Positions 1,334 through 25,187 of a DNA stretch of 33,636 bases are shown piece by piece. The notes below the pieces were generated by a model that had not been told where the DNA came from, made no database searches, and saw nothing but the letters and a program-made list of their open reading frames with translations. Within the stretch, counting starts at the first letter, position 1. Every line of letters starts with the position of its first letter. Source of the stretch: Deltaproteobacteria bacterium. GTDB lineage: Bacteria > Myxococcota_A > UBA9042 > DTJE01 > S145-11. The position numbers and the translations under genes were made by a program. The stretch is taken from positions 1 to 33,636 of the forward strand of contig WGCQ01000089.1 in NCBI GenBank assembly GCA_015493765.1. Reading direction: 5' to 3'.

Positions 1334-2170
1334 TTACATCTGGTCTTTCGATGTGGCACAGGCCTTGTTCGGATAGCACACATTTTTGTCCATGGAGGCA
1401 TGAATACACAGCACATTGGACAATGCATCATCCTGGCCTGGCATACAAGGAATGGCATTACTTTGGGGGCTCATGGACAGAGGGTCATTCGTTATGTACC
1501 TGACCAGGCACCCCCAACACAATTTAACCGGAAACATGAAGGTGTTCGATGAAACCTTGTGACCGGAGGATGTAACCCCTTCCATCTTGACATAGGCATA
1601 TACCTCGGCTGATGGCGCGCTGCACGCATCGGCATTTATCCTGGCCTTGAACACCTTGCGTAGTTCGTTACCTATGGATTCGGGAATGATTTCTACGGCG
1701 GTCATCACATCGGTATCTGGCTCCAATCCACCTGCGGCAGGCACGAAAAACCCATCCACCATCGCCGAATACAGTTTGGTCTGGTCAACATTGGAGTCGT
1801 TATAGATACTCCCGGGTATGTCCAGCCTTACATCAGCGCCCGTAATATTGAGGTAGTTATTCTCAACATCCAGGTTTACCTCGGAGGTACCGTTAATGGC
1901 CATGGAAGATGGCATATTATTGTAAATATGCGGAAACATGTAATAGTGGTTGGTCACTGCCAGGTCCAGCACGCCGAAAGGCCGTACGAACTGACCGCTG
2001 GTGCCGCTTTGGATGGTGCACTGGTTCTGCCTGGTCATGGCCATTGACTCCAGGATCACGATGGACCCCGGGTGCTGGTTGGGACAGCTCACGAACAGTC
2101 CGCATACTGCGACAAAAGCAACCATCTTTAATTGCTTCAATTGGATGAGTTTTTTTATCCTTTGCATCAC
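1334..2170 (-). CDS. Exported hypothetical protein encoded directly after pilQ
   Basis: This 278-aa protein has an N-terminal basic and hydrophobic segment ending VCGLFVSC29. That could be a weak lipobox (Phe at -3 is unusual) or a cleavable signal. The mature part is Ser/Thr/Asn-rich and beta-like, and has eight further Cys, six of them in the last 100 residues (for example CWGC near residue 225 and CYPNKAC near 265), which suggests disulfides in an oxidising compartment. Its ATGATG start overlaps the pilQ stop by 4 bp, so it is almost certainly translationally coupled to pilQ as the last gene of the pilus operon. I do not recognise a family. A role as a PilQ-associated outer-membrane or pilus accessory factor is inferred from position only. 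Confidence 0.75.
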   Translation of the reverse strand: MMQRIKKLIQLKQLKMVAFVAVCGLFVSCPNQHPGSIVILESMAMTRQNQCTIQSGTSGQFVRPFGVLDLAVTNHYYMFPHIYNNMPSSMAINGTSEVNLDVENNYLNITGADVRLDIPGSIYNDSNVDQTKLYSAMVDGFFVPAAGGLEPDTDVMTAVEIIPESIGNELRKVFKARINADACSAPSAEVYAYVKMEGVTSSGHKVSSNTFMFPVKLCWGCLVRYITNDPLSMSPQSNAIPCMPGQDDALSNVLCIHASMDKNVCYPNKACATSKDQM

Positions 2171-5100
2171 AGGTTCACCTCCCTGTTTACTACCTTGGGA
2201 GTAATAAATATCAGCAATTCAGACCGGTCGTCTTTGGAACTCTTGGTCTTGAACAGCCATCCCAGTATCGGAATATCGCCAAAGAACGGCAGTTTATGGT
2301 AGGACTTGGACGTATTTTTGGTGTAAATTCCGCCGATTACGGCCGTATCCCCGTCATTGACCAACAATTCGGTCTGGGCCTCCTTTTTCTGAATTGTGGG
2401 GTTGCCATTTGCAGCCATGTTACCAAAATCAGGTTCGTTCTTTGAAATGAATATCTTTAGCAGTATATGGCCGTCCCTGGTTACGTGTGGTGTTACCTGC
2501 AATTTCAGGTCAGCCGAGAAGAACTGGGTATTTACCCCGGCTGCGCTGACCACGCTGATAGGGATCGACACACCCTGGGAAATAACGGCCTTTTCGTTGT
2601 CCAGGGTTGAAATCCTGGGTGCGCTGATAATCTTTACATCACCGTTTTCCTCGGCCGATGACAGGCGCAAGCTGAGGTTGGCCGCCCCACCCAGGCTGCC
2701 CAGCGTAATACCCAGGGCGCCACCGGAACCCATACCTGCGGGTGCAGGCAGGTTGACTGCAAAGTGCGGGGAATCGTTGAACAGCCCGCCCAACGGTGCG
2801 GATTTATCATCGGCACCACCACCAATACCTATTGTATTCGGGAACACCAGGCCCGTATCGTTGCCATAACCCGGTGCCATAACAAATTTTCCACCCCATT
2901 GGATGCCCATGGACCTGGTAAAACTGGTTCTGGCCTCAACAATACGTGCCTCGATTAATACCTGTGGCGTCTGCATGTCCAGTTTGTGGACGAGTGACTC
3001 TATGGCCACCAGGTGGTCTTCCGTATCCTTGATGATCAAGGTATTGGTCCGCTTGTCAAAACTTACGGACCCACGCTTGGACAACAGGGACTTGACCTTG
3101 CCGGCCAGGTCCTGGGCCCTGGTATAGTTCACCGGGATCAAACGGATCATCACGGGCTTTAATGCCCTTGCACGCTTCCGTTTTTCCATCTCACGCTGAT
3201 ATTCGGCCTGAATCTGTTGGGCCGGTGCCACCCTGTAAATGCCTTGTTCCACCACGTAATCCAGGCCATTGACCTTGAGGATCGTGTCAAGTGCCTGGTC
3301 CCACGGCACATTTTCCAGGTGGAAACTGACCCTGCCGCGAACCCCTTTTGTGGTAACGATGTTCACATGACCTTCCTTGGCCAGGAATGTCAACACGTTT
3401 ACGATATCCGCATCCTTAACGGTCAAGTTAATCCGTTTGCCCCTGAAGCGCTTCCGTTTAGGCACGACAAAGGGCTTCAGGTAGGTCGGACTAATCGTCT
3501 GGCCTGTTTGTGCCGTCCTGATGGCATTCGGCACCTTGTACCCGGAGGGGGCCACACCGGTTTGCCCGACCTGGGCCACCATGTTACCTGACTCATCCGG
3601 CAACACGTTCCATACAATCAAACCGCTGAGTTCATCCAGGCGGTCCCGCACGGCAATCTTGCCTTCCAACAGCAATTTGACGTTACCCTTGCCATCGCTA
3701 TAGATCGTCACCTGTTTCACCGGGGTATCGAACGCGCTCACGTCCATCTTCTTTTCCAGGGACGGGTCAATCGACGCCCTGCGGATCGTCATCAACAGGG
3801 TCTTGGGCCCCAGCCGTGTCACCGTGTAGTCCGGTACACCCTTGATGGACAAACGGATCATTCCGGCACTCCGCCCCTGTTCAAACGCCACCTTTCGGAT
3901 CGTGCAAACCAGGCCCTTCCGAACCTTGTAGTTTTGTTCGATGCCCTTTGCCTGGGCCTGCTTGCGCGCCATCATCCGCCTGGTTCGACGCAGTTCCTCC
4001 ATGGCCCTGGCCTGCTTCCGCTCCAGTGCCCTGCGTTTTTGTTTCTCCGCCTCCAGTTCCTTCTGGAGCCTGGCCACTTCGCCCTTGTTTTGCGCCTGGG
4101 CCTGTGACAACTGTTGTTGCAGTTCGGCAATACGGCGCTTGCTTTGCCGGTTTTCCATGGTCAACTGGTTCAACCTCTGTGTCGTGGCATGGACCTTTTC
4201 CTTCATGGCCGCCAGTTCACCCTCGGCCTTGACCAGTTTGTCCATCAGGCTCACGACCTTTGCCGCGGCCTGGGCCTCCCTTTGCCGGGCCTGCTGCTCA
4301 CGTACCGACGCCTGCTTCAGACTGCGCTTCAAGGCCTTCAATTTGGCCTGCTGGGCCTGCAAGGCCTGTTTGCCGGCCTGGTTCGCCCTGAGTCTGCGGA
4401 TTTCCGCCTCCTTCCGGGATATGGCCTTGCGCAGTTTTTCCACCTCCACGGACTTACGCTGTGCCACCTGCCTCTGAAGTATCTCCAACTGCCTGGTCAG
4501 TTCGCGTATCCGCTTCTCGCGCTTGCTGCGCAACATGTTTTCCCTGGCCAGTAACGATTTGTATTTCCTGTTCAATTCCCTGGTCTGTTGCACGTAGGAC
4601 TTCAGGTCGCGACGCAGTTGCGTGATCTCGCGCTTCTGGGACCTGGTCTTTTTGCCGTGTAACCCGGCATTCCTGATGGCCTGGCGCATGACCTCGATTT
4701 CCTGTTCCCTCTCGTGCAGGCGTTTTTTGAGCGCCTCCAGTGCCTGTGTCTGCGAGGATTTGGTGTTTTTCAAATCCTGCAATGCCACGGACAAACGCCT
4801 CACCTCCCTGGCCTTTTGGGTGGCCAGCGCATTTAGTTGCGCGATCTTGGCCTCGTATTGCTGCCTGGTCCTGGCAAGTGCAGCCTTCAATTGCTGGATA
4901 TCCCGGCCCTTTGGCGCCCGCTGCAAAGCCGCCTCCTTTTGCGCCAGGCGCTTTCTGAGCACACTCGCCTCCCTGGACACCTGCTGTAACTGCCGGGTCA
5001 GTTGGGTCAAATTGCCTTTTGCCTGCTGAAGGTCCTGGACCCTGGCCTGTAGCCTTTGTACCTCCCTGGCCCTCTGGGCGGCCAGTGCGTTGAGTTGCGC

Positions 5101-6324
5101 GATCTTGGCCTCGTACTGGCGCCTGGTCCTGGCAAGCGCGGCCTTCAATTTCCGTATATCCTGGCCCTTTGGCGCCCTCTGCAAAGCCGCTTCCTTTTGC
5201 GCCAGGCGTTGCTTGAGCACACTCGCCTCCCTGGACACCTGCCGTAACTGCCGGGTCAGTTGGGTCAGTGTGCCCTTTTTCTTTTGTAATCCCTGCACCT
5301 GGGCCTGGAGGTTCTGGACCTGCCTGGACAGGCGTGCGTGTTCCGCTTTTGTCCGCTGTAGTTCGGCCCTTGCCTTTGCCAGTTTACCCCTGGTATCAGC
5401 CAGTTGCGCCTGCAGTCTGGCCACCTGGCGTTGCGCCTTCACGTAATTCTTCAACGCCGAATTACCCTTTTTAACCAGTGCCGCCAGTTTCGCCTCCTGG
5501 GCCTTGCGTTCCCGGGCCTTCCTGCGCAACATGTCTTCTTCCTGGCGTACCTGGGCTGCCAAGGCCTCCAACTGCTGCGATTGTTGCGCCTTTTGTGCGG
5601 CCAGTTGCTTCAATTCAGCCAGCAATTTACGGTTCCTGGCAGAACTCTTTTCCGCCTTGATGCTGAGTATCCGTTTTTCCGTGGACTGCTTTTCCAACAG
5701 GGCCTGCTGTGATGCCTTCAGGTATTTCAGGCGTTCTTCCTCTTTTTTTGCCGCTTCCTGCAATGCCAGGCGTCTTTCCTGCTCCTGTTTAATCAGGTTT
5801 TGTAATTCTTTTAGTTTTTTCGCATTGCCCAGTTGTTCACTCAGGCGTGCCGCCTTTGCCTTTGCCTTTTGCAATTCTTCCCGGATGCCCTGCATCCTGG
5901 AGCGTAACGTGTTTACATTCTCATGGCGGTACAAAGCGGACAGTTTGACCAGTATGTCCGTACCCTGGGTCCGGACTGTGTATGGGACGTCCCGGACCAG
6001 TGTGATGACAACCCTTGTCTGGGCCTGGCCGGCGGACAGGAATTGCACAACGCCGATTCGGCTGATCACCCCATTATCCACTGTAATCGATCCGGGAAGG
6101 CTGTTCGTGCGTATCGAGGACACATCCACGAATATCCTGGGCGGATTTGCCAGTTTGAACACGTTGAAGGTCGGAGTTGACCTGGTGTGTATCACGACTA
6201 CGGACGCATCCTGCTGCTCCGTAACGGACACCTTTTGCACGCTATTTGTCTCCCCGGCCCATCCAGTCACACCAACCAGCAACGAGGCGGTGATCACCAC
6301 GGCTCTCACTCGGGCTCGCATCAT
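2167..6324 (-). CDS. pilQ: Type IV pilus secretin PilQ with giant coiled-coil insertion
   Basis: PilQ forms the outer-membrane pore through which type IV pili extrude. The order is: signal peptide (1-24), AMIN domain (about 30-130), long coiled coil (about 137-795), second AMIN domain (about 815-920), STN domain (about 985-1060, containing KDADIVNVLTFLAKEGHVNI), secretin N1 domain (RLIPVNYTRAQDL...TLIIKDTEDHL), and the C-terminal secretin channel (VLIEARIVEA, then a VPDF-like region and LFKTKSSKDDRSELLIFITP). At 1385 aa it is about twice the usual 650-900. The excess is all coiled coil, rich in Lys, Gln, Arg, Ala and Leu, and includes a tandem 86-residue duplication. The start has GGAGGT 4 nt upstream. 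It is 60 bp from pilP and overlaps the next gene by 4 bp. Confidence 0.95.
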   Translation of the reverse strand: MMRARVRAVVITASLLVGVTGWAGETNSVQKVSVTEQQDASVVVIHTRSTPTFNVFKLANPPRIFVDVSSIRTNSLPGSITVDNGVISRIGVVQFLSAGQAQTRVVITLVRDVPYTVRTQGTDILVKLSALYRHENVNTLRSRMQGIREELQKAKAKAARLSEQLGNAKKLKELQNLIKQEQERRLALQEAAKKEEERLKYLKASQQALLEKQSTEKRILSIKAEKSSARNRKLLAELKQLAAQKAQQSQQLEALAAQVRQEEDMLRRKARERKAQEAKLAALVKKGNSALKNYVKAQRQVARLQAQLADTRGKLAKARAELQRTKAEHARLSRQVQNLQAQVQGLQKKKGTLTQLTRQLRQVSREASVLKQRLAQKEAALQRAPKGQDIRKLKAALARTRRQYEAKIAQLNALAAQRAREVQRLQARVQDLQQAKGNLTQLTRQLQQVSREASVLRKRLAQKEAALQRAPKGRDIQQLKAALARTRQQYEAKIAQLNALATQKAREVRRLSVALQDLKNTKSSQTQALEALKKRLHEREQEIEVMRQAIRNAGLHGKKTRSQKREITQLRRDLKSYVQQTRELNRKYKSLLARENMLRSKREKRIRELTRQLEILQRQVAQRKSVEVEKLRKAISRKEAEIRRLRANQAGKQALQAQQAKLKALKRSLKQASVREQQARQREAQAAAKVVSLMDKLVKAEGELAAMKEKVHATTQRLNQLTMENRQSKRRIAELQQQLSQAQAQNKGEVARLQKELEAEKQKRRALERKQARAMEELRRTRRMMARKQAQAKGIEQNYKVRKGLVCTIRKVAFEQGRSAGMIRLSIKGVPDYTVTRLGPKTLLMTIRRASIDPSLEKKMDVSAFDTPVKQVTIYSDGKGNVKLLLEGKIAVRDRLDELSGLIVWNVLPDESGNMVAQVGQTGVAPSGYKVPNAIRTAQTGQTISPTYLKPFVVPKRKRFRGKRINLTVKDADIVNVLTFLAKEGHVNIVTTKGVRGRVSFHLENVPWDQALDTILKVNGLDYVVEQGIYRVAPAQQIQAEYQREMEKRKRARALKPVMIRLIPVNYTRAQDLAGKVKSLLSKRGSVSFDKRTNTLIIKDTEDHLVAIESLVHKLDMQTPQVLIEARIVEARTSFTRSMGIQWGGKFVMAPGYGNDTGLVFPNTIGIGGGADDKSAPLGGLFNDSPHFAVNLPAPAGMGSGGALGITLGSLGGAANLSLRLSSAEENGDVKIISAPRISTLDNEKAVISQGVSIPISVVSAAGVNTQFFSADLKLQVTPHVTRDGHILLKIFISKNEPDFGNMAANGNPTIQKKEAQTELLVNDGDTAVIGGIYTKNTSKSYHKLPFFGDIPILGWLFKTKSSKDDRSELLIFITPKVVNREVNL
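4800..5315 (-). repeat. 258-bp tandem duplication inside pilQ
   Basis: Two in-frame copies lie side by side with an offset of 258 bp (86 codons). For example, CCTCCCTGGCC occurs at 4803 and 5061, and GCGATCTTGG at 4841 and 5099. At protein level both copies carry RAPKG-DI--LKAALARTR and QYEAKIAQLNALA with few substitutions. Copy boundaries are approximate. Confidence 0.85.
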
Positions 6325-6384: not shown

Positions 6385-6972
6385 TTAGTATTCATACATG
6401 GACTCGATTAGTTTTGCCATTTCCTTTTTACTTTCCATCAATTTCATCGTAACGGGCGGCTTGCCCGGCTGTTCCACCACGATACCGTCATCCGTGATGG
6501 CCGTCACCCTGCCACCGAGGTTACCGATTGGCGTACCCAGTTTGACCACGTAGGTATTCCCCTTTCCGTCCACGACCAGCGCCTTGGGCAGGGCCGTCCC
6601 GCTGATTATCGCGGTCAACCGGTAATAGGAAAGGTCGTGATATTCCAGCGGGGTCTTGGGATTTTCCTTTTTCTGTTGCTTGGCCTCTGTCACCACAACG
6701 GAAACCTTGGGTGCAAACATGGCCAGGTTCGACTTGAACGGGTCCACAAGCCCCTCGTTTCGTTGAATGTATTTTGTGAAAAAAGGCCTGATTATGTCGA
6801 ATTTGGCATTTCCCGAACCGGGGAGCGCCTTGTGTTTGGGCTTTTCAATGGTTGCTTGTTTTTGTGCAACAGGCATCCTTACCACCGGCATACTACGACC
6901 CGGGCCGCAACCAAGGCTCAAGGCGGTTATACCTGCCAGGACAAATATGAATAAAGCGCGACGTCTCATCAT
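6385..6972 (-). CDS. pilP: Type IV pilus inner-membrane lipoprotein PilP
   Basis: PilP links the PilN/PilO inner-membrane complex to the PilQ secretin. The 195-aa protein starts with a lipoprotein signal ending SLGC22. A Pro/Lys-rich linker follows, then the conserved IQRNEGLVDPFKSN segment (residues about 72-86) and a C-terminal beta domain (ALVVDGKGNTYVVKLGTPIGNLGGRVTAITDDGIVVEQ), which is the HR-type fold of PilP. Its length is normal for the family. Its ATG overlaps the pilO stop by 4 bp. The assignment is secure from both sequence and context. Confidence 0.93.
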   Translation of the reverse strand: MMRRRALFIFVLAGITALSLGCGPGRSMPVVRMPVAQKQATIEKPKHKALPGSGNAKFDIIRPFFTKYIQRNEGLVDPFKSNLAMFAPKVSVVVTEAKQQKKENPKTPLEYHDLSYYRLTAIISGTALPKALVVDGKGNTYVVKLGTPIGNLGGRVTAITDDGIVVEQPGKPPVTMKLMESKKEMAKLIESMYEY

Positions 6973-7667
6973 TTTTTACCTGTATACATGAAAACAAAAG
7001 CCTTCATCGACACATCCAAAACCGTGCGCTTGGCCGCTTCCTCAAAAAGAATCAGCCGTTTAGCCTGTTGTTCCGAGGGTGTCAATTGCCTTGAGGCCTC
7101 CCTTTCCTTTAGCACCCTCAAAAGCCCTATGTCGCCGATACTCTTTTCCACATCCCTCAGGTTTGGCATACTGGCCTTGATCTGGAAGGACTCAATGTTT
7201 ACCAGTCGCTTGGTCGGTGCGGCCAGCGCATCCAGAAAGGCTATCAACTGGGAGTAACGGCCTTTGACCCTGATTGATATGGGAATTTTTATATAAGACG
7301 GGCCCCTGAGGTTCTTTTTTTGTTTTTCGAATTTGACCAGTTCCAGGCCCGCGGTATCGGCATCCGTCTTCAGACTTTCAATGAATTCCGGTACTTCGGC
7401 CCGCGTGGGAAGCAAACGTTCGTAACTGGCCTTTTTTTCCTCAAGCGCCTTTCGTTCCTTTTCGATTTGCTGTTTGAATGCCGGGCTGTCAAAGCGTTTC
7501 AGTTGGTAGTAACGGGTCATGTTACGACGGTAACGCGCAATCTGGGAATTGGTATCCGTATAGACAGGGTCGATCAGGCCATAGTATGTTCCCCCCCCGA
7601 CCACTACCATAACCACTACCAGGGCCAGTAATTTTTGAGGTAATGGTAATTCAAGAAATTTATCCAT
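6969..7667 (-). CDS. pilO: Type IV pilus alignment protein PilO
   Basis: This 232-aa bitopic membrane protein has a short cytoplasmic N-terminus (MDKFLELPLPQK), one membrane segment (about 12-29), a periplasmic coiled coil (about 35-100, including QIEKERKALEEKKASYERLLP) and a ferredoxin-like domain. The motif RGPSYIKIPISIRVKGRYSQ followed by FLDALA is typical of PilO. It pairs with PilN in the inner membrane and contacts PilP. It lies between pilN (1-bp overlap) and pilP (4-bp overlap), which indicates a single translationally coupled transcript. Confidence 0.93.
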   Translation of the reverse strand: MDKFLELPLPQKLLALVVVMVVVGGGTYYGLIDPVYTDTNSQIARYRRNMTRYYQLKRFDSPAFKQQIEKERKALEEKKASYERLLPTRAEVPEFIESLKTDADTAGLELVKFEKQKKNLRGPSYIKIPISIRVKGRYSQLIAFLDALAAPTKRLVNIESFQIKASMPNLRDVEKSIGDIGLLRVLKEREASRQLTPSEQQAKRLILFEEAAKRTVLDVSMKAFVFMYTGKK

Positions 7668-8350
7668 TATTTTACCCCCTCAATACCGGTTGTCCCCATG
7701 GCAAGATTGATTGGCACCGTGTACCTGACCTGCCAATTCGCCCTGAATTTAACCGGCATAAACCCCAGATTTAACTTTGTTTTCATGCGTTCCAGTTCCT
7801 GGGAGCCCGGATTCAAGGCCACCACGTAGGCCGAGGATTCCATGCGCTTGTATAATTCGGCCACGTCACCATGGTCAATGGCCATGCCCTCCATGGTCAC
7901 ATTGCCTTTTTTATCGATCAGCCTGGTCAGCCAGACACGCCGAGGGTCCCACCTGGTGTCCCAGCCTGCCAATTCCTGCGCCTTCAATTCCTCCAGGTTG
8001 GACGGGGTCTCAGGAAGCTTGGTCAGCATGTAGGAAAAGAACCGTAACATGCGGGCCGGTCCTGTTTGGATGTACCTGAGGCGTTCCAGGACCTTCATGC
8101 GCGCCTTGATGCCCTTTTTCTTTTTCTGCCACGCGTCCCATTGTTTTTTCAGTTTATCCAGTTTCACGACCTTCTGGTGTACCTCCCTGGCCCTCCTGGT
8201 TGCCAGGTCCAGGTCACCCTGGGCCCGCTGGTACCATACAAACATGAAAACCAGTTCCACCACGAGGATTGCAAGGAACACGAACAACTGGCCTTTTGGT
8301 GCCCTGGCCTTCCTGCGGACACGCCTTCCTATAAGGTTAATTCTAATCAT
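7667..8350 (-). CDS. pilN: Type IV pilus assembly protein PilN
   Basis: PilN bridges cytoplasmic PilM and periplasmic PilO. The protein begins MIRINLIGRR, matching the conserved INLL/INLI motif that binds the PilM groove. A basic stretch follows, then a membrane helix (about 22-40), a coiled coil (about 45-90) and a periplasmic fimbrial-assembly domain with VWLTRLIDKKGNVTMEGMA. The length of 227 aa is slightly long for PilN. It overlaps pilM by 4 bp and pilO by 1 bp. Confidence 0.93.
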   Translation of the reverse strand: MIRINLIGRRVRRKARAPKGQLFVFLAILVVELVFMFVWYQRAQGDLDLATRRAREVHQKVVKLDKLKKQWDAWQKKKKGIKARMKVLERLRYIQTGPARMLRFFSYMLTKLPETPSNLEELKAQELAGWDTRWDPRRVWLTRLIDKKGNVTMEGMAIDHGDVAELYKRMESSAYVVALNPGSQELERMKTKLNLGFMPVKFRANWQVRYTVPINLAMGTTGIEGVK

Positions 8351-9420
8351 GCTACTGCCCTGTCCCCGGGTTTACGCAAACCCAAACCAATGGCCACGCC
8401 GGCAGCAGGGGCAACCCGCTGCAACAGGTCGATATCGAATTTCTTGGCATCCACCACGATATTTTTGAATGGATTGGTCAGTTCAACCGGCACGCCGAGG
8501 CGATTTTCCAGGCGCCTCACCAGGGCCGGAACCTGGGCCGACCCACCGGTCAGGTAAAGCCTGGTTATATCCGCCTTCATGTTCGTTGCCACGAAAAAGT
8601 CCAGGGAACGCTTGATTTCGGTAACCATGTCGTCGGCCACGCGTTCGGATATACGACCCACCTCCCTGGCTATGGTGGAGGATGACAGGGAACCTTCCAC
8701 GCCGGTTTTGAACTGCTCGGCCTCTTCAAAGGTCACGTTCAACTGTTTCTGGATTTCAGTGGTCAGTTTACTGCCACCCATGCCCAGGTCCCTGGTAAAT
8801 GCCAATGTACTGTTCGATATAACTATCACGTTGGTCAAGGAGGCCCCAACGTTGATCAGTGCGATGGTTTCACCGGGCGGCAACTGGTAATTGGCCTCAA
8901 ACATGTTATAAACGGCAAAGGTCGCCGTATCCACGGTCACCGGTTTCAACCCGCCCTCCAGGGCAACCGATACATGCTCGTCCACGTACTCTTTTTTTGC
9001 CGCAACCAGCAGCACGTCCATCTGGCCGTGTCCGGCCCTCGGGTTGAGTATCTGGATATCCACGTTCACCTCGGACAGGTCAAACGGAATATACTGCTCG
9101 GCCTCCCACTGCAAGGATTCCTCCAGTTCGTAGGCCGTCATTTCCGTCATCAGCAGTTTTTTGATGATAACAAAGTTTCCCGACACCCCCAGGGCCGCTT
9201 CCTTGCCCTTGAGGCCGTTGGTTTTAACCATTTCCCTGACACGCTCCACCACCGCGGCAAAATTCATGATCCTGCCGTCCACCACGGTTTCAGGCGGAAG
9301 AGCCACCATGTCGAAGCTCAACAGCTCCACGCCCCTGGACGTCTCTTTCATGTGGGCCATCTTGACGGACGAGGTCCCGATGTCCAGCCCAACCAGGTTA
9401 CCTTTCCCAAACAATGCCAT
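8347..9420 (-). CDS. pilM: Type IV pilus actin-like ATPase PilM
   Basis: PilM is the cytoplasmic actin/FtsA-fold protein of the pilus alignment complex. The phosphate-1 loop GLDIGTSSVK lies at residues 10-19, followed by SLQWEAEQYIPFDLSEVNVD, INVGASLTNVIVISNSTLAFTRDLGMGG (phosphate-2 region) and LYLTGGSAQVPALV (adenosine motif). I start it at the ATG at 9418-9420 (MALFGKGN), which gives 357 aa. An in-frame TTG four codons upstream is less likely. It is the first gene of the pil operon, with a candidate promoter at 9448-9475. Confidence 0.93.
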   Translation of the reverse strand: MALFGKGNLVGLDIGTSSVKMAHMKETSRGVELLSFDMVALPPETVVDGRIMNFAAVVERVREMVKTNGLKGKEAALGVSGNFVIIKKLLMTEMTAYELEESLQWEAEQYIPFDLSEVNVDIQILNPRAGHGQMDVLLVAAKKEYVDEHVSVALEGGLKPVTVDTATFAVYNMFEANYQLPPGETIALINVGASLTNVIVISNSTLAFTRDLGMGGSKLTTEIQKQLNVTFEEAEQFKTGVEGSLSSSTIAREVGRISERVADDMVTEIKRSLDFFVATNMKADITRLYLTGGSAQVPALVRRLENRLGVPVELTNPFKNIVVDAKKFDIDLLQRVAPAAGVAIGLGLRKPGDRAVA

Positions 9421-9447
9421 TATTCCACCCAAAAAAACTCATTTTTA

Positions 9448-12683: not shown

Positions 12684-15473
12684 ATGGAGAATACAGGTAC
12701 ACAGTCCAAGGCCACAGAGGTAATCAGGGCAAACAACGGGAAGGTCACCCTGCCCGCTTTTACCGCACAGATGGGTACTGACCGTATGACTGCATTACAG
12801 GTACTCAAGTCTTTGATGAGGCAGTACAAATGTAACCTGATCGTCACGGACGAGGGTGTGATCATCTATGATTTCGGTCCGAATTTCCGACCGCACCACC
12901 CGGCCCTGGCAATCCTTGTCATGAATATCGTCGTTTTTTTTATCAAAGTGTGGGATGTGATAAAGGCCCGCTCCCTGTTTGCCGCCTGGTATGTCACCTT
13001 GCCGAATGAAGACCTGTACGGAATGGACTACTACGACGACAAGCAGGAGAAACAGGACAATGCTGCGAGAAAAGAGCAGGACGAAGATGCCTTTTCATGG
13101 GTGGACAGGGAACGAAAAAAGGGCGAGGCCCTTGCCACCCGGGTGATTGCCGGCAAAAACAAGCGCGTTTTTGAGTATCCTATGCCGGACCAGTCGTTCA
13201 TGCATACATACCCGCCGGCCAGCCGTTTATATGCTGACATTGCGAACATGAAACACTGGATAATACGCAAAAATACACGCAACAGGCGGTTCATGAACTA
13301 CGTCAATGCCGTGGGCGGAAAGGTAACCGCAATGGAGTGGGCCGTGTTGTTCGATACGGACCTGCGGGAGGCGGAGGATGCAATTACTGCCCTGTATGCG
13401 GAATACGAATCCGAAGTCCATGTGAGTACGGAAGGGGAACTGGTGTTCGATTTTTCCGCTGCCCTGGGAAAGGATTTTGGCCTTCCGCCGGCACCGTTGT
13501 CCCACAAATTCACGCTGATGCGTGCCACTATCGACCCTGGATTACGGGCAGGGATCTACTTCATGGGCCTGTTCAGGCTGTTAGGTGCACTGGACATGTT
13601 CATTGTTCTACCCTTGCTTATGTTACTGTACCCCGCCTCGTATCACGGTTTCGACCTTAGCCATTTGGGCATAATCGGATTTTTCTGGCTTGTAATCGGT
13701 TTTCTGAACGAAGATCGCATCTTTGGAAGCCCAGACGACCCAGACGACGTATATGGAACGGAATTTTTGAAATGGGTGATTCTGGCCATCTTTATAGGTT
13801 TACCTGTGAAGTACATCGTCGATCTGTTCTGGATGGCCCAGGGGGTGCCCCAGGTGTTGTTTTTGATCTCTTTTATCCTGGCCTTGATGGTATTTTCCAT
13901 CATGTTTGTGGACATGAAGAGGTTTATGATCTACGAGATTGCCATGTTCGGAGGCATATTTATAAGTGCGCTCCTGGTTTCCTGGAACGTGGTTCCACCA
14001 GGACATGGGGCCTTTATCTTTATCACAATGGCAATCATGTTCATCGGGTGGATGATCGAACTGGGGGCTGTATCGCCGATCGCATTTTTCCCCCTCCTTT
14101 CCCAGGTGTTTACCATGATCAGAAGGCTCAAAAACCGCAACCTGTGGTTCAGACTGGCACTACACGAGCACCTGATGCACCGCAACACTGGTATTCCACC
14201 GGACCCTTCGGACGCTGCCGCATTCCTGGGCAAAGAATGCCCGTTTCCGGTGCCAGTGCCTTCTAACAGGGGGTTTACCCGCACCATCGCCGACTTACAG
14301 GGTGAATTACAGGCACCCAATGACCCCAGCAAGCCTGCGTTTTTCGTGTTTCCACGGGTACAGGGCCAGAAAAGGGCGCTTGGATATATTGAAGGGGAGA
14401 AAGAGTTACAGGCCCAGGCGTATGCCCCTCCTAAACCTGCATCGCTATGGTTCAGGTACCGGCTGTACATAAGGCGTTTTATCGTTGGACTGGCATTCGT
14501 GGTGGGGTTCGGGTGGCATCATTATTCGAAGATACACTATTTGATTGCCGGGTGTAACAGTGGCTATGACCGGGCGTGCTATGCACTGGCACAGGAGTAT
14601 GAAACGGGTAAAGACGTCAGGCGTGACCTGCACAAGGCATTGAAACTATACGAAAAGTCCTGTACTGCCGGATACGGCAAGGCATGCAACTACGCAGGAT
14701 GGTGGTTGGAGCATGGAAATCTTGGTTACCGGGACCTGAAAAAGGCCAGGGACCTGTATGAGCAGGCATGCAAAAAAGGCTACAGCATTGGGTGCCTCAA
14801 TGCAGGAGTCGTGTGGGAAGACGGCCGGGGTGGGCCGAAGAACCTGGGGAAGGCCTTTGAATTATATCTTTTGGACTGTAAACGAAATTATCATGCGAAC
14901 AAAATAAAGACTATCCTTGAGGAGGATAATAGTTGTTCCAGGTTAAAGCCCTTGTTGAAACAGGACAAAAATCTCAGGGACCGGGCCGCGGTATTGTGTA
15001 ACAAAGGGAACGCCCTGCTCTGCAATTACCTGGGGGAATTAGCGGAACACGGTCAGGGTGGGCCCAAAGATTTGGAAAAAGCCCTTGTGTTTTATCTAAA
15101 ATCCTGTGACAAAAACAACGATGACGGTTGCCACCATATGAATGCCTTGTTGAATCATAACAAAAGGGGCAGGGACCTGCTCAGGCCCATATGCAACAAG
15201 GGGAATACCACAATTAGCGGCATGGCATGCAATCAACTGGGGTGGAGGCTACGTAATGGCAAAGGGGGACCAAAGGACCCGAAACAGGCCAGGATTTTTT
15301 ATAAGAAGGCCTGTGATAAAAACTATCATTGGGGATGCACCAATCTGGGGTGGCTAATGGAAATTGGTGAAGGTGGACCAATCGACGTGAAAGGGGCAAT
15401 CAAGTTGTATACCAAGGCTTGCAAGTTAGGCGATCCGGATGCATGCAAGTCTGCAAAAGGGCTGTCCAGGTAA
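12684..15473 (+). CDS. Polytopic membrane protein with duplicated winged-helix-like modules and Sel1/Hcp-like repeats
   Basis: 929 aa. Two related N-terminal modules, residues 16-66 (NNGKVTLPAFTAQMGTDRM...VTDEGVIIYDF) and 206-258 (VGGKVTAMEWAVLFDTDLRE...STEGELVFDF), look like winged helices (helix-turn-helix plus beta wing). After each comes a hydrophobic part: one segment at 76-93, then about seven segments between 288 and 470. A last membrane helix (about 599-617) precedes a C-terminal array (623-925) of Sel1-type helical repeats (KALKLYEKSCTAGYGKACNYAGW and so on). These have paired Cys about 7-8 residues apart, as in the disulfide-stitched Hcp proteins of Helicobacter. That suggests the repeats face the periplasm. 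The start ATG has only a weak ribosome site. The function is unknown; a membrane-anchored sensor or scaffold is one possibility. Confidence 0.8.
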   Translation: MENTGTQSKATEVIRANNGKVTLPAFTAQMGTDRMTALQVLKSLMRQYKCNLIVTDEGVIIYDFGPNFRPHHPALAILVMNIVVFFIKVWDVIKARSLFAAWYVTLPNEDLYGMDYYDDKQEKQDNAARKEQDEDAFSWVDRERKKGEALATRVIAGKNKRVFEYPMPDQSFMHTYPPASRLYADIANMKHWIIRKNTRNRRFMNYVNAVGGKVTAMEWAVLFDTDLREAEDAITALYAEYESEVHVSTEGELVFDFSAALGKDFGLPPAPLSHKFTLMRATIDPGLRAGIYFMGLFRLLGALDMFIVLPLLMLLYPASYHGFDLSHLGIIGFFWLVIGFLNEDRIFGSPDDPDDVYGTEFLKWVILAIFIGLPVKYIVDLFWMAQGVPQVLFLISFILALMVFSIMFVDMKRFMIYEIAMFGGIFISALLVSWNVVPPGHGAFIFITMAIMFIGWMIELGAVSPIAFFPLLSQVFTMIRRLKNRNLWFRLALHEHLMHRNTGIPPDPSDAAAFLGKECPFPVPVPSNRGFTRTIADLQGELQAPNDPSKPAFFVFPRVQGQKRALGYIEGEKELQAQAYAPPKPASLWFRYRLYIRRFIVGLAFVVGFGWHHYSKIHYLIAGCNSGYDRACYALAQEYETGKDVRRDLHKALKLYEKSCTAGYGKACNYAGWWLEHGNLGYRDLKKARDLYEQACKKGYSIGCLNAGVVWEDGRGGPKNLGKAFELYLLDCKRNYHANKIKTILEEDNSCSRLKPLLKQDKNLRDRAAVLCNKGNALLCNYLGELAEHGQGGPKDLEKALVFYLKSCDKNNDDGCHHMNALLNHNKRGRDLLRPICNKGNTTISGMACNQLGWRLRNGKGGPKDPKQARIFYKKACDKNYHWGCTNLGWLMEIGEGGPIDVKGAIKLYTKACKLGDPDACKSAKGLSR

Positions 15474-22035: not shown

Positions 22036-23907
22036 ATGATAAAGATATTGATTACGGAGCGAGGCAAAAAAAAGAGGACTATCACTGTTAACAAAACTGT
22101 GGCGACGATTGGACGCATACCGAAAAATGACATCACACTGCCCAAACCCAACATATCCAAAAGACATGCAACGTTGAAACTTGAGGGTGAACAGCTGATC
22201 ATAGATGACAATGGCAGCACGAATGGAACCTATGTAAATGGCAAAAGGATCAGTGCCCCCCAGCCCATAGGACCGGAGGACCGTATATTTATCGGGGATT
22301 TTGTGCTGAAAGCCACGGCGGAGGAAGCAGGCGCAAAACCGACGAAACAGGCTGAAGAGGCAAAACCTGCGCCGCCTGAACAACAAAAGAAACCAGAATA
22401 CAAGGCAACCCTGACCCAAAAGGCTGTTGATGTGGCAGAGGTGGAAAAGGCCGCTGTTTCGGGCAAGGAGGAACTCCCCCCTCCACCGGACGAAGAGGAA
22501 TTGGAAATAGTCCTGGAGGACGAGGACATTGTGGAAGAGGTGGAGGAGATCGAAGCGGAGGTCCTGGAAGAGCCGGAGCAGGTGAAACCACAAAAAGAGG
22601 GCAAAACCGAAAAGACAAAGCCAATGGCAAAGTCCAAGAAGAAAACAGCGGAACAGGCCAAGGATAAGGATAAAGAAAACCAGGCCGTACTGGCCAGGGA
22701 TGCGGATGTGAATGCCGGGCTGACCGACAAGGTGGCCACCATTCCATCGGAGGCAAAACTTGATGCCGCGGGTAAGGACCTGGAGGCCTACAGGTTGGTG
22801 TTGTCAGAGGTTGCCCAGAGGGCCAGTAAGGCGGTCTTTAAGGATATGCCGGTGGGCGACAAAGAAATATCGGATGAAGAATGGTCCTACTATTCTGACC
22901 GGTTGATGCAAATAGTGGAAAGCATGAGGCGATCCAATGAAATTCCATCGAGCATAGACCCCTACGTATTGTCCCAGGACATACTCTCGGAGTACACAGG
23001 ACTGGGGCCGCTTGAGGAACCACTGGCGGATGAAGCCGTAAGGGCCATACACGTGACCGGTTGTACCAGTATATTTGTGCTACGCGGTTTTCAATGGGAA
23101 CGGATATCCAAGGTGTTCAGTTCCACTGCCGCCCTGACCAGGGTCATGGCGAAACTCGTAAAACAGGCAAACATAAAGGACGTTTCCGCCAGGCACTACC
23201 TGAGGGGACGGATGGATAACGGTACCCTGTTACAATTGCTGCTGCCGCCGTTGAGTGGCAAACATACGATCATCCTGGAAAAAGGCAAGGCATCCAGGCT
23301 GACGTTGCAGGACCTGTTGCAGGCAAAATCCCTGGACCAGAAGGCTGTTGATTTGATAAAAGACGCGATAGACCACGACCAGAACATCATAATATGCGGC
23401 CCGAAACATTCCGGCAAGACGGTTTTGTTGAATGCACTGCTGTCACTTATGCCGTTGGAGGCCAACCTGGTGTTACTGCAAGGCAGGAGTGAACTCAGGG
23501 CACCCCATGTCAATACGATACTGGTCAACAAGGACAACCTGGACCAGGAACCGACACACGCAGCATTCATCCTGGACAGCATCAGCCCGGACTGGGTGGT
23601 GTTTGAGGACCTCGACCTGAACGATGTCAAGGTAATGCTGGAGCTGATCGTATCGGGGCGTCATTCCATAATCGCAACCCTGTCGTCGTCGGATTGCCAG
23701 GCCTGCCTGGACAGGCTCGTTATGGAATTAAATATCCTGTACCCTGCATTGACGCATACGGACCGCTTAAGGATGATATACTCCACGATTGACCTTATTA
23801 TCAGCATGGAAAGGCAACCCGGCATTGGCTCCAGGGTGACCAGGGTAACCCGCCTGAAAATGGACAAGGATTCACCCGGTAAAGAGGTGTTGTTTGGGGA
23901 TAAATAA
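22036..23907 (+). CDS. FHA-domain protein fused to divergent CpaF/TadA-like ATPase
   Basis: 623 aa. The N-terminal FHA domain (about 5-93) has GR26-27, S41-H44 and the NG-TYVNG loop, so it should bind phosphothreonine. A charged Glu/Lys/Pro linker follows (about 95-245). The C-terminal half follows the plan of secretion ATPases of the CpaF/TadA type: SEYTGLGPLEEPLADEAVRAIHV, RGRMDNG, a Walker A loop GPKHSGKT (455-462) and a Walker B-like DWVVFED (519-525, Glu524 kept). The motifs expected between and after are eroded: the conserved Asp box EDTxEL reads LQGRSEL, the GEVRG region reads FEDLDLN, and the TTIHAN motif reads ATLSSS. It may bind ATP but be weakly active or a pseudo-ATPase. It overlaps the next FHA gene by 1 bp. 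Confidence 0.8.
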   Translation: MIKILITERGKKKRTITVNKTVATIGRIPKNDITLPKPNISKRHATLKLEGEQLIIDDNGSTNGTYVNGKRISAPQPIGPEDRIFIGDFVLKATAEEAGAKPTKQAEEAKPAPPEQQKKPEYKATLTQKAVDVAEVEKAAVSGKEELPPPPDEEELEIVLEDEDIVEEVEEIEAEVLEEPEQVKPQKEGKTEKTKPMAKSKKKTAEQAKDKDKENQAVLARDADVNAGLTDKVATIPSEAKLDAAGKDLEAYRLVLSEVAQRASKAVFKDMPVGDKEISDEEWSYYSDRLMQIVESMRRSNEIPSSIDPYVLSQDILSEYTGLGPLEEPLADEAVRAIHVTGCTSIFVLRGFQWERISKVFSSTAALTRVMAKLVKQANIKDVSARHYLRGRMDNGTLLQLLLPPLSGKHTIILEKGKASRLTLQDLLQAKSLDQKAVDLIKDAIDHDQNIIICGPKHSGKTVLLNALLSLMPLEANLVLLQGRSELRAPHVNTILVNKDNLDQEPTHAAFILDSISPDWVVFEDLDLNDVKVMLELIVSGRHSIIATLSSSDCQACLDRLVMELNILYPALTHTDRLRMIYSTIDLIISMERQPGIGSRVTRVTRLKMDKDSPGKEVLFGDK

Positions 23908-25187
23908 TGGCGGATGGTCGTTTTAAAATCCTGGTTGAAGACCGGTTTGGCACGGTAACGGACGAATATGAATTCGATGCGGGAAAATTCATTCTGGGAC
24001 GCAGCAGTAATTGCGATATAGTGCTTCCCGGGGATAATGTATCCAGGCGGCATGCCAGGCTGTTTACCAAGGATGATGCCCTTTTTATCGAGGACCTGAA
24101 TAGCGCAAACGGAACCTTTGTAAACGGCAAGAAGATCACAAAACCCGTTATGTTACTGGATGGTACCGTATTTCGAGTGGGTGATTTTCATATCCATGTT
24201 CATGGCGGAGTACAAAGTCTTGAACCTGATACGGTTTTTTTGCGATTGATAGGGTTGAATCGCTCGGTAAAGGACGAAATATTTGAGGTTAAAGAGAAAA
24301 CTTCTCTGGTTGGCAGGGGCAATGATTGCCAAATCGTTATTGTGGACCCGTCGATTTCCAGGGTCCATGCCAGGTTTTTGGTAATGAATCCCAGTACGGT
24401 CCTGGTGAAGGACATGGGCAGCGCCAACGGGGTGTACGTAAATGGTCGCATGGTCAACACGTGGGAATTACGCAGTGGTGATGACCTGAGGATCGGTGAC
24501 CTGGAATTCAAAGTTGAAATCCCTGGTGCGGATACCACCAAGACCAAGAGTGGTTGGATAATTCCGGGCAAGATCCAGACCCCATCTGCCAGATCCAGGA
24601 TGCTATTGGCAGTTAGCGGGATATTGGCCATAATACTGGTTCTCCTGGTCTTTTATGTGGTGAGAACACTGAGCAAACAGTCGTCATCCGGACAGGTGCA
24701 GCCGCGAATCGTAAAACACGGGCAGATAGCGCACAATAAGCAGCCCTCCGTAAAAGTCGTCCCTGCACACAAAATCCGGGATGTGGATATTTCAGCGCTT
24801 TTAGCGCAGGCCAAGGAGTTCCTGAAACACGGCGACCTGGATGCAGCGGAAAGCCTTCTTGCCAAGGCGGACAAATTATCCCCTGGTGACCCTAAAGTCA
24901 TAACATTGAAAAACCAGGTTGAACTCGAAAAGGAAAACAGGAAATTATTGATCGCTGCCCAGAAATCCATGAGCCAGAAAAAGGTCATGGATGCCGCAGG
25001 GTTGTTATTACGCATCCCGGAAACATCGATCTTTCATAAAAGCGCTGGTATTATGCTGGAGGATGCCAAGGACAACCTGGCGTTATTGCAGAATCGCGTA
25101 TGCAGGACCAGTCGCAGCAAGCGTGGAGTCAGGTGCAGGCAGATACATGCATTGATCAGCCGTATCGACTCTAAAATAGCACACTGA
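23907..25187 (+). CDS. Tandem FHA-domain membrane protein with TPR-like C-terminus
   Basis: 426 aa. The first FHA domain (about 5-98) has GRSSNCDIVL, SRRHAR and NSANGTFVNG. The second (about 108-205) has GRGNDCQIVI, SRVHAR and GSANGVYVNG. Both keep the phosphothreonine-binding Arg, Ser and Asn. One membrane helix (232-253) separates the cytoplasmic FHA pair from a Lys-rich linker and a helical, TPR-like segment (about 294-395: FLKHGDLDAAESLLAKADKLSPGDPKVI), presumably periplasmic. The topology resembles inner-membrane ring or scaffold proteins that pair with secretion ATPases, but no pore gene is nearby. It starts at the overlapping TAATG with GGGGA upstream. Probably acts with the upstream FHA-ATPase. 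Confidence 0.82.
   Translation: MADGRFKILVEDRFGTVTDEYEFDAGKFILGRSSNCDIVLPGDNVSRRHARLFTKDDALFIEDLNSANGTFVNGKKITKPVMLLDGTVFRVGDFHIHVHGGVQSLEPDTVFLRLIGLNRSVKDEIFEVKEKTSLVGRGNDCQIVIVDPSISRVHARFLVMNPSTVLVKDMGSANGVYVNGRMVNTWELRSGDDLRIGDLEFKVEIPGADTTKTKSGWIIPGKIQTPSARSRMLLAVSGILAIILVLLVFYVVRTLSKQSSSGQVQPRIVKHGQIAHNKQPSVKVVPAHKIRDVDISALLAQAKEFLKHGDLDAAESLLAKADKLSPGDPKVITLKNQVELEKENRKLLIAAQKSMSQKKVMDAAGLLLRIPETSIFHKSAGIMLEDAKDNLALLQNRVCRTSRSKRGVRCRQIHALISRIDSKIAH

Follow-up and report, generated by a model that had tools for sequence, protein, structure and literature searches.

A long coiled coil between two AMIN domains of the type IVa pilus secretin PilQ in Myxococcota: a possible lateral cell-wall tether

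The last gene of the intact pilMNOPQ operon in the DNA analysed here (a stretch of 33,636 nucleotides from an uncultured Myxococcota bacterium, referred to as the window) encodes a PilQ in which a coiled coil of about 660 residues separates two AMIN domains; a coil in the same position is found in PilQ from a large part of the Myxococcota. The coil-bearing PilQ is apparently a widespread, so far undescribed redesign of a well-studied pilus machine: the open-access papers searched do not describe a coiled coil in PilQ. With respect to its function we consider it quite possible, if not yet probable, that the first AMIN domain (AMIN1) binds peptidoglycan and that the coil is a lateral tether leading from the secretin ring to the distant cell wall.

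The pilQ gene (positions 2167–6324, minus strand) is an open reading frame of 1385 residues without interruption, with the Shine-Dalgarno-like sequence AGGACCGGAGG immediately 5′ of the ATG. The protein matches the PilQ model TIGR02515 over the full model with 423.2 bits (residues 962–1380), which exceeds the curated cut-off of 284.35 bits, and Pfam finds AMIN (33–122, two AMIN stretches), STN (989–1035), Secretin_N (1061–1121), and Secretin (1225–1379), with STN/N0, Secretin_N, and Secretin in the correct order. Judged from these matches, the window protein is PilQ, the type IVa pilus secretin. From its N-terminus onwards, and always on the minus strand, the gene encodes a putative signal peptide (residues 1 to about 22; 6259–6324; MMRARVRAVVITASLLVGVTGWAGE, by inspection), AMIN1 (residues 29–129; 5938–6240), the coiled coil (residues 138–798; 3931–5913), AMIN2 (residues 807–909; 3598–3906), and the N0/N1-secretin core (residues 961–1385; 2170–3444; TIGR02515 and the three Pfam models just named). 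AMIN1 has a beta fold according to Pfam, the strands predicted by AlphaFold2, and its best PDB fold matches, which are AMIN domains; AMIN2 is defined by alignment to the third AMIN domain of PilQ from Myxococcus xanthus and by AlphaFold2, and an AMIN profile and beta fold are thus found on either side of the coil. The limits of the coil were set by a composition filter and are accurate to about 15 residues. A PilQ with a coil between two AMIN domains had already been proposed in a preliminary description of this DNA, and TIGR02515, Pfam, and AlphaFold2 bear this out; the coil limits given there (137–795) were correct to a few residues.

The genes preceding pilQ in the operon, likewise on the minus strand, are pilP (6385–6972; PF04351), pilO (6969–7667; PF04350), pilN (7667–8350; PF05137), and pilM (8347–9432; TIGR01175, PF11104). 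PilN, PilO, and PilP are of ordinary length (227, 232, and 195 aa), and PilB and PilT are encoded in the same genome. The pilQ stop is overlapped by the start of a gene for a putative lipoprotein (1334–2170, minus strand) without a match in Pfam or NCBIfam. Many Myxococcota with the coil and some without it have a homologue (e.g., L033, L035, L038, L117, L125), mostly with a recognisable lipobox, whose gene has the same orientation as pilQ and follows it immediately or after about 1.5–3 kb; in Myxococcaceae the search did not find one. The lipoprotein is a candidate partner of PilQ, e.g., a pilotin, and is not specific for the coil. In the other family of the order (f2; L033–L044) pilQ and the lipoprotein gene stay together and, unlike in the window, the DNA retrieved around pilQ yielded no homologue of pilM, pilN, pilO, or pilP. 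Elsewhere in the window there are two adjacent FHA genes (22036–25187, plus strand), of which the first encodes FHA fused to a weak match to a T2SSE-type ATPase and the second two FHA stretches; a gene (12684–15473, plus strand) whose 929-residue product has hydrophobic segments and carries Sel1 repeats at its C-terminus; and, downstream of the operon (732–1310), short repetitive DNA with spurious-looking open frames (repeated translation of the Asn-Gly-Gln-Arg/Ser-Ala-Thr-Val type).

Residues 138–798 contain 15% Ala, 14% Gln, 13% Arg, 13% Leu, 12% Lys, and 9% Glu; Pro occurs twice and Gly 15 times among the 660 residues, and the codon-position GC of this part of the gene is coding-like, as it is in the flanking domains. 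The hydrophobicity spectrum has a peak at a period of 3.48 with a power of 4.7, the highest power in 20 composition-preserving shuffles being 2.7. The segment is therefore a heptad coiled coil and not just a sequence of biased composition. A heptad period of 3.48–3.56 is also found in most coils of relatives; a clear peak at 3.5 is lacking in some coils, mainly those of one family. There are coils in relatives with proline-free stretches of 1300–1667 residues and with stretches of 250–435 residues free of both Pro and Gly. Similarity of the coil to SMC/KIF profiles was discounted as generic coiled-coil composition. Within the window coil 86 residues are duplicated in tandem (residues 351–522; 4759–5274, minus strand) with 79% amino-acid and 80% nucleotide identity, and two Pro-Gly breaks (385–387 and 471–473) fall inside the duplication. 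In one family the coil has internal modules of about 200–240 residues. The repeats are not fixed to multiples of 7: lags of 25, 43, 86, and 103 are present, which indicates that the coil registers shift. Autocorrelation of Gly/Pro across the coils of relatives gave no consistent signal for a regular hairpin spacing beyond that of the sequence repeats. The window coil is strongly basic (net charge +98), whereas most other coils are near neutral, and a conserved DNA- or wall-binding role of the charge was rejected for this reason.

The secretin was searched for in 53 genomes from the same order, class, and phylum, from which the loci were then retrieved. Within the class, 28 pilQ genes including that of the window have an uncut 5′ end, and all 28 encode a coil, which is 557–2014 residues long and of which that in the window is the third shortest; the longest PilQ has 2787 residues (L065). 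The order is AMIN1-coil-AMIN2-core in these uncut members, the coil starting 120–190 residues from the N-terminus just after AMIN1, and the length of the coil can differ by hundreds of residues inside one genus. In some genomes of the class (e.g., G011, G021, G024, G028, G043) PilQ was not detected, for which loss and a gap in an incomplete assembly are both possible; G021, G024, and G028 (family f10) have no PilQ above the model cut-off and weaker secretin matches only, and may have lost the type IVa secretin. One PilQ frame of about 2215 residues (L051, G020:C37) is interrupted, about 400 residues from its C-terminal end, by a single in-frame TAA, which is either a sequencing error or indicates a split gene. 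Among 237 genomes of the phylum, PilQ open frames outside the class mostly have about 450 to 1560 residues, and the longer ones, in those examined, carry a coil of about 270–770 residues at the same position in many families. With 80 named contigs added to the survey, a coil of 481 residues was found in PilQ from the cultured Enhygromyxa salina and none in those from Myxococcus, Corallococcus, Hyalangium, Archangium, Citreicoccus, and Anaeromyxobacter. For absence outside the phylum we refer to the solved PilQ structures and to one annotated plasmid-borne PilQ from Acinetobacter (about 720 aa). In a FastTree of the PilQ core (113 rows; long branches and no reliable root) the coil trait needs 6 changes vs. 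29.6 with shuffled labels; it should be noted that L173, scored as having a coil, contains 12 Pro and 19 Gly and is probably a false positive, and that L059 and L062, scored as having none, are cut at their 5′ ends. The trait is clustered on this tree, which is compatible with one early gain and a few losses but does not prove a single origin.

The homolog survey of insert length suggested in the preliminary description shows that relatives do carry the coil, with about 270 to 2,000 residues. The implied peculiarity of one organism has to be given up, since the coil is not unique to the window genome and spans a large part of the Myxococcota, the window coil being among the shorter ones in its class. 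A frameshift, an assembly artefact, or a wrongly called start, of which the first two had been considered from the outset, is rejected by the uninterrupted open reading frame, by the same architecture in the uncut class members, and by the substitution pattern. In close pairs dN/dS is 0.10–0.45 for the coil, 0.02–0.13 for the core, and 0.06–0.36 for the AMIN domains. Judged from these ratios, the coil is a constrained protein segment under purifying selection that tolerates length change. Its length changes fast, in part via internal duplication, and the variation both within the class and inside a genus agrees with what one would expect of a tether whose length is under a soft constraint.

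AlphaFold2 was run on residues 23–945 of the window PilQ with four relatives aligned. The model (pLDDT 65, pTM 0.27) shows the strands of AMIN1, helices over residues 137–802, and the strands of AMIN2. The helices are broken at about 383–386, 469–473, 556–560, and 648–651, which are Pro/Gly sites, leaving helices of 82, 82, 87, and 94 residues; for a relative of 1083 residues, helices of 66, 134, and 111 residues were predicted (pTM 0.29). The significant PDB fold matches of the window model are the AMIN domains of PilQ and of the amidase AmiC from Escherichia coli; MacA and EmrA are weak, non-significant matches. From the low confidence of both monomer models and from these matches it follows that the secondary structure can be used, the tertiary arrangement not.

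The nearest solved relative is PilQ from M. xanthus (901 aa; PDB 3jc8/3jc9), with which the first AMIN, the last AMIN, N0/N1, and the secretin of the window protein align (AMIN1 with the first AMIN; residues 769–1382 with residues 300–895). However, the M. xanthus protein has three AMIN domains and no coil, whereas that of the window has two and a coil, which occupies the place of the middle region of the former (about 146–300, its second AMIN included). The PilQ proteins from Pseudomonas, Neisseria, and Vibrio (571–761 aa; PDB 6ve2, 4av2, 9sh1, 6w6m) have about half the length and no coil; their core aligns over residues 957–1382 of the window protein with E values of 1e-65 or better. AMIN domains have been reported to bind peptidoglycan in AmiC and in M. 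xanthus PilQ, and the latter needs these domains, of which one suffices, in order to be recruited to septum and poles (PMC10653833). A cell-wall-binding domain followed by a long coiled coil and an outer-membrane part is known from SlpA of Deinococcus and Omp-alpha of Thermotoga, the coil of the latter, an upright spacer, being predicted to be 45 nm long (PMC9388160). The domain logic is the same, but this is an analogy rather than membership in that connector family, since SlpA and Omp-alpha have an SLH domain and a porin-type barrel or transmembrane helix where the window protein has AMIN and the secretin. MacA/EmrA and EnvC have a periplasmic coiled-coil hairpin beside flanking domains; their hairpins are short, the fold matches are weak, and a relation is not claimed.

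The coil lies N-terminal to AMIN2, N0, N1, and the secretin and hence off the axis that secretin, PilP, and PilN/O make up. In the proposed mechanism the secretin ring with AMIN2, N0, and N1 would keep its usual place in the axis of the type IVa pilus and meet PilP as elsewhere, and the coil would form a very long arm in the periplasm, tipped by AMIN1. The 12–15 arms per ring, perhaps paired as dimers or trimers, would run sideways in the periplasm, their terminal AMIN1 domains binding peptidoglycan away from the pore. As guy-lines or struts they would fix the secretin in the cell wall, determine its position there, and distribute the load that arises when the pilus retracts across a larger area. 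Consistent with such a tether are the conserved order of the AMIN domains and their fold matches, the heptad period, the proline-free stretches, dN/dS, the soft length, the lengths of PilN/O/P, the presence of PilB and PilT, the AMIN-dependent recruitment of M. xanthus PilQ, and the precedent of SlpA and Omp-alpha. Against it stand the predicted helix breaks, which are compatible with a fold-back into helices of 80–95 residues; AMIN2, which alone may suffice for wall binding, one AMIN domain being enough in M. xanthus (PMC10653833); the charge, basic in the window and near neutral in most other coils, which leaves no conserved charge role; and the coils without a clear 3.5 peak.

The length of the coil bears on several other explanations. 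As an upright rod it would measure 98 nm in the window (660 × 0.1485 nm; roughly 100 nm had been estimated before) and 299 nm in L065, more than even the "extraordinarily wide" periplasm of Thermus of ~70 nm (PMC4463427). That the coil keeps outer membrane and peptidoglycan far apart in a very thick periplasm, as the likeness to SlpA and Omp-alpha might suggest, is therefore highly improbable, all the more since it does not lie between secretin and PilP and since PilN, PilO, and PilP are mostly of ordinary length. The unusual envelope that the preliminary description had envisaged is not borne out in this respect: apart from one family, some members of which have a longer PilN, the lengths of PilN/O/P are mostly similar in lineages with and without coil, and this speaks against a periplasm of greatly increased thickness. 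In the members concerned (L048, L052, L054, L057, L061, L064, L065, L073, L074, all of one class family) PilN has 349–388 residues vs. about 230, with start codons as called, and the coils are very long. With an upright rod exceeding the periplasm, a rod along the wall or a folded-back rod remain. The earlier conclusion that the coil must fold back, wrap around the pore, or form a cage is not borne out as stated, since the coil could also lie along the wall; the AlphaFold2 models do not decide this.

Folding into antiparallel hairpins or bundles, which would surround the periplasmic vestibule as a collar or cage and stiffen the ring or restrict access, is doubtful but deserves consideration. 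It would agree with the helix breaks in both AlphaFold2 models, which in that of the window fall at Pro/Gly sites, with the 200–240-residue modules of one family, and with the bracketing of the coil by AMIN1 and AMIN2, reminiscent of the beta domains around adaptor hairpins as in the weakly matching MacA and EmrA. However, the Gly/Pro spacing, which is not consistently regular across relatives beyond the sequence repeats, and the long stretches free of both residues in some coils do not fit well, and a fourfold length variation in one class would be odd for a fixed collar. Since long heptad coils naturally homo-oligomerise and type IVa pili are often polar, the coil might instead join neighbouring secretins, so that the pilus machines would form arrays or clusters at the pole; nothing in the operon suggests this, and we regard it as unlikely. 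Even less do we expect that only a short coil is functional and that repeat slippage has added an excess without a role. Rapid length change and recent internal duplications would be explained in this way, but three observations would not: the purifying selection over the whole coil, more than 1000 residues with hardly any proline, and the lack of complete class members with a coil below 557 residues.

If the coil is indeed a lateral tether, then in a large part of the Myxococcota the secretin would bear radial, cell-wall-bound coiled-coil arms of about 40 to 300 nm, and for such a spoke-like anchor in the periplasm no counterpart is known among other machines for pili or secretion; in this generality the proposal is speculative. 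How a type IV pilus secretin stays in the cell wall under a large pulling force is an open mechanical question. With respect to the coil of PilQ the standard model M. xanthus is not representative of its phylum, which offers a natural series from PilQ without coil in Myxococcus to coils of about 270 to 2000 residues elsewhere, the cultured E. salina included. This series makes wall anchoring, the placement of the machine, and the role of the AMIN domains directly testable.
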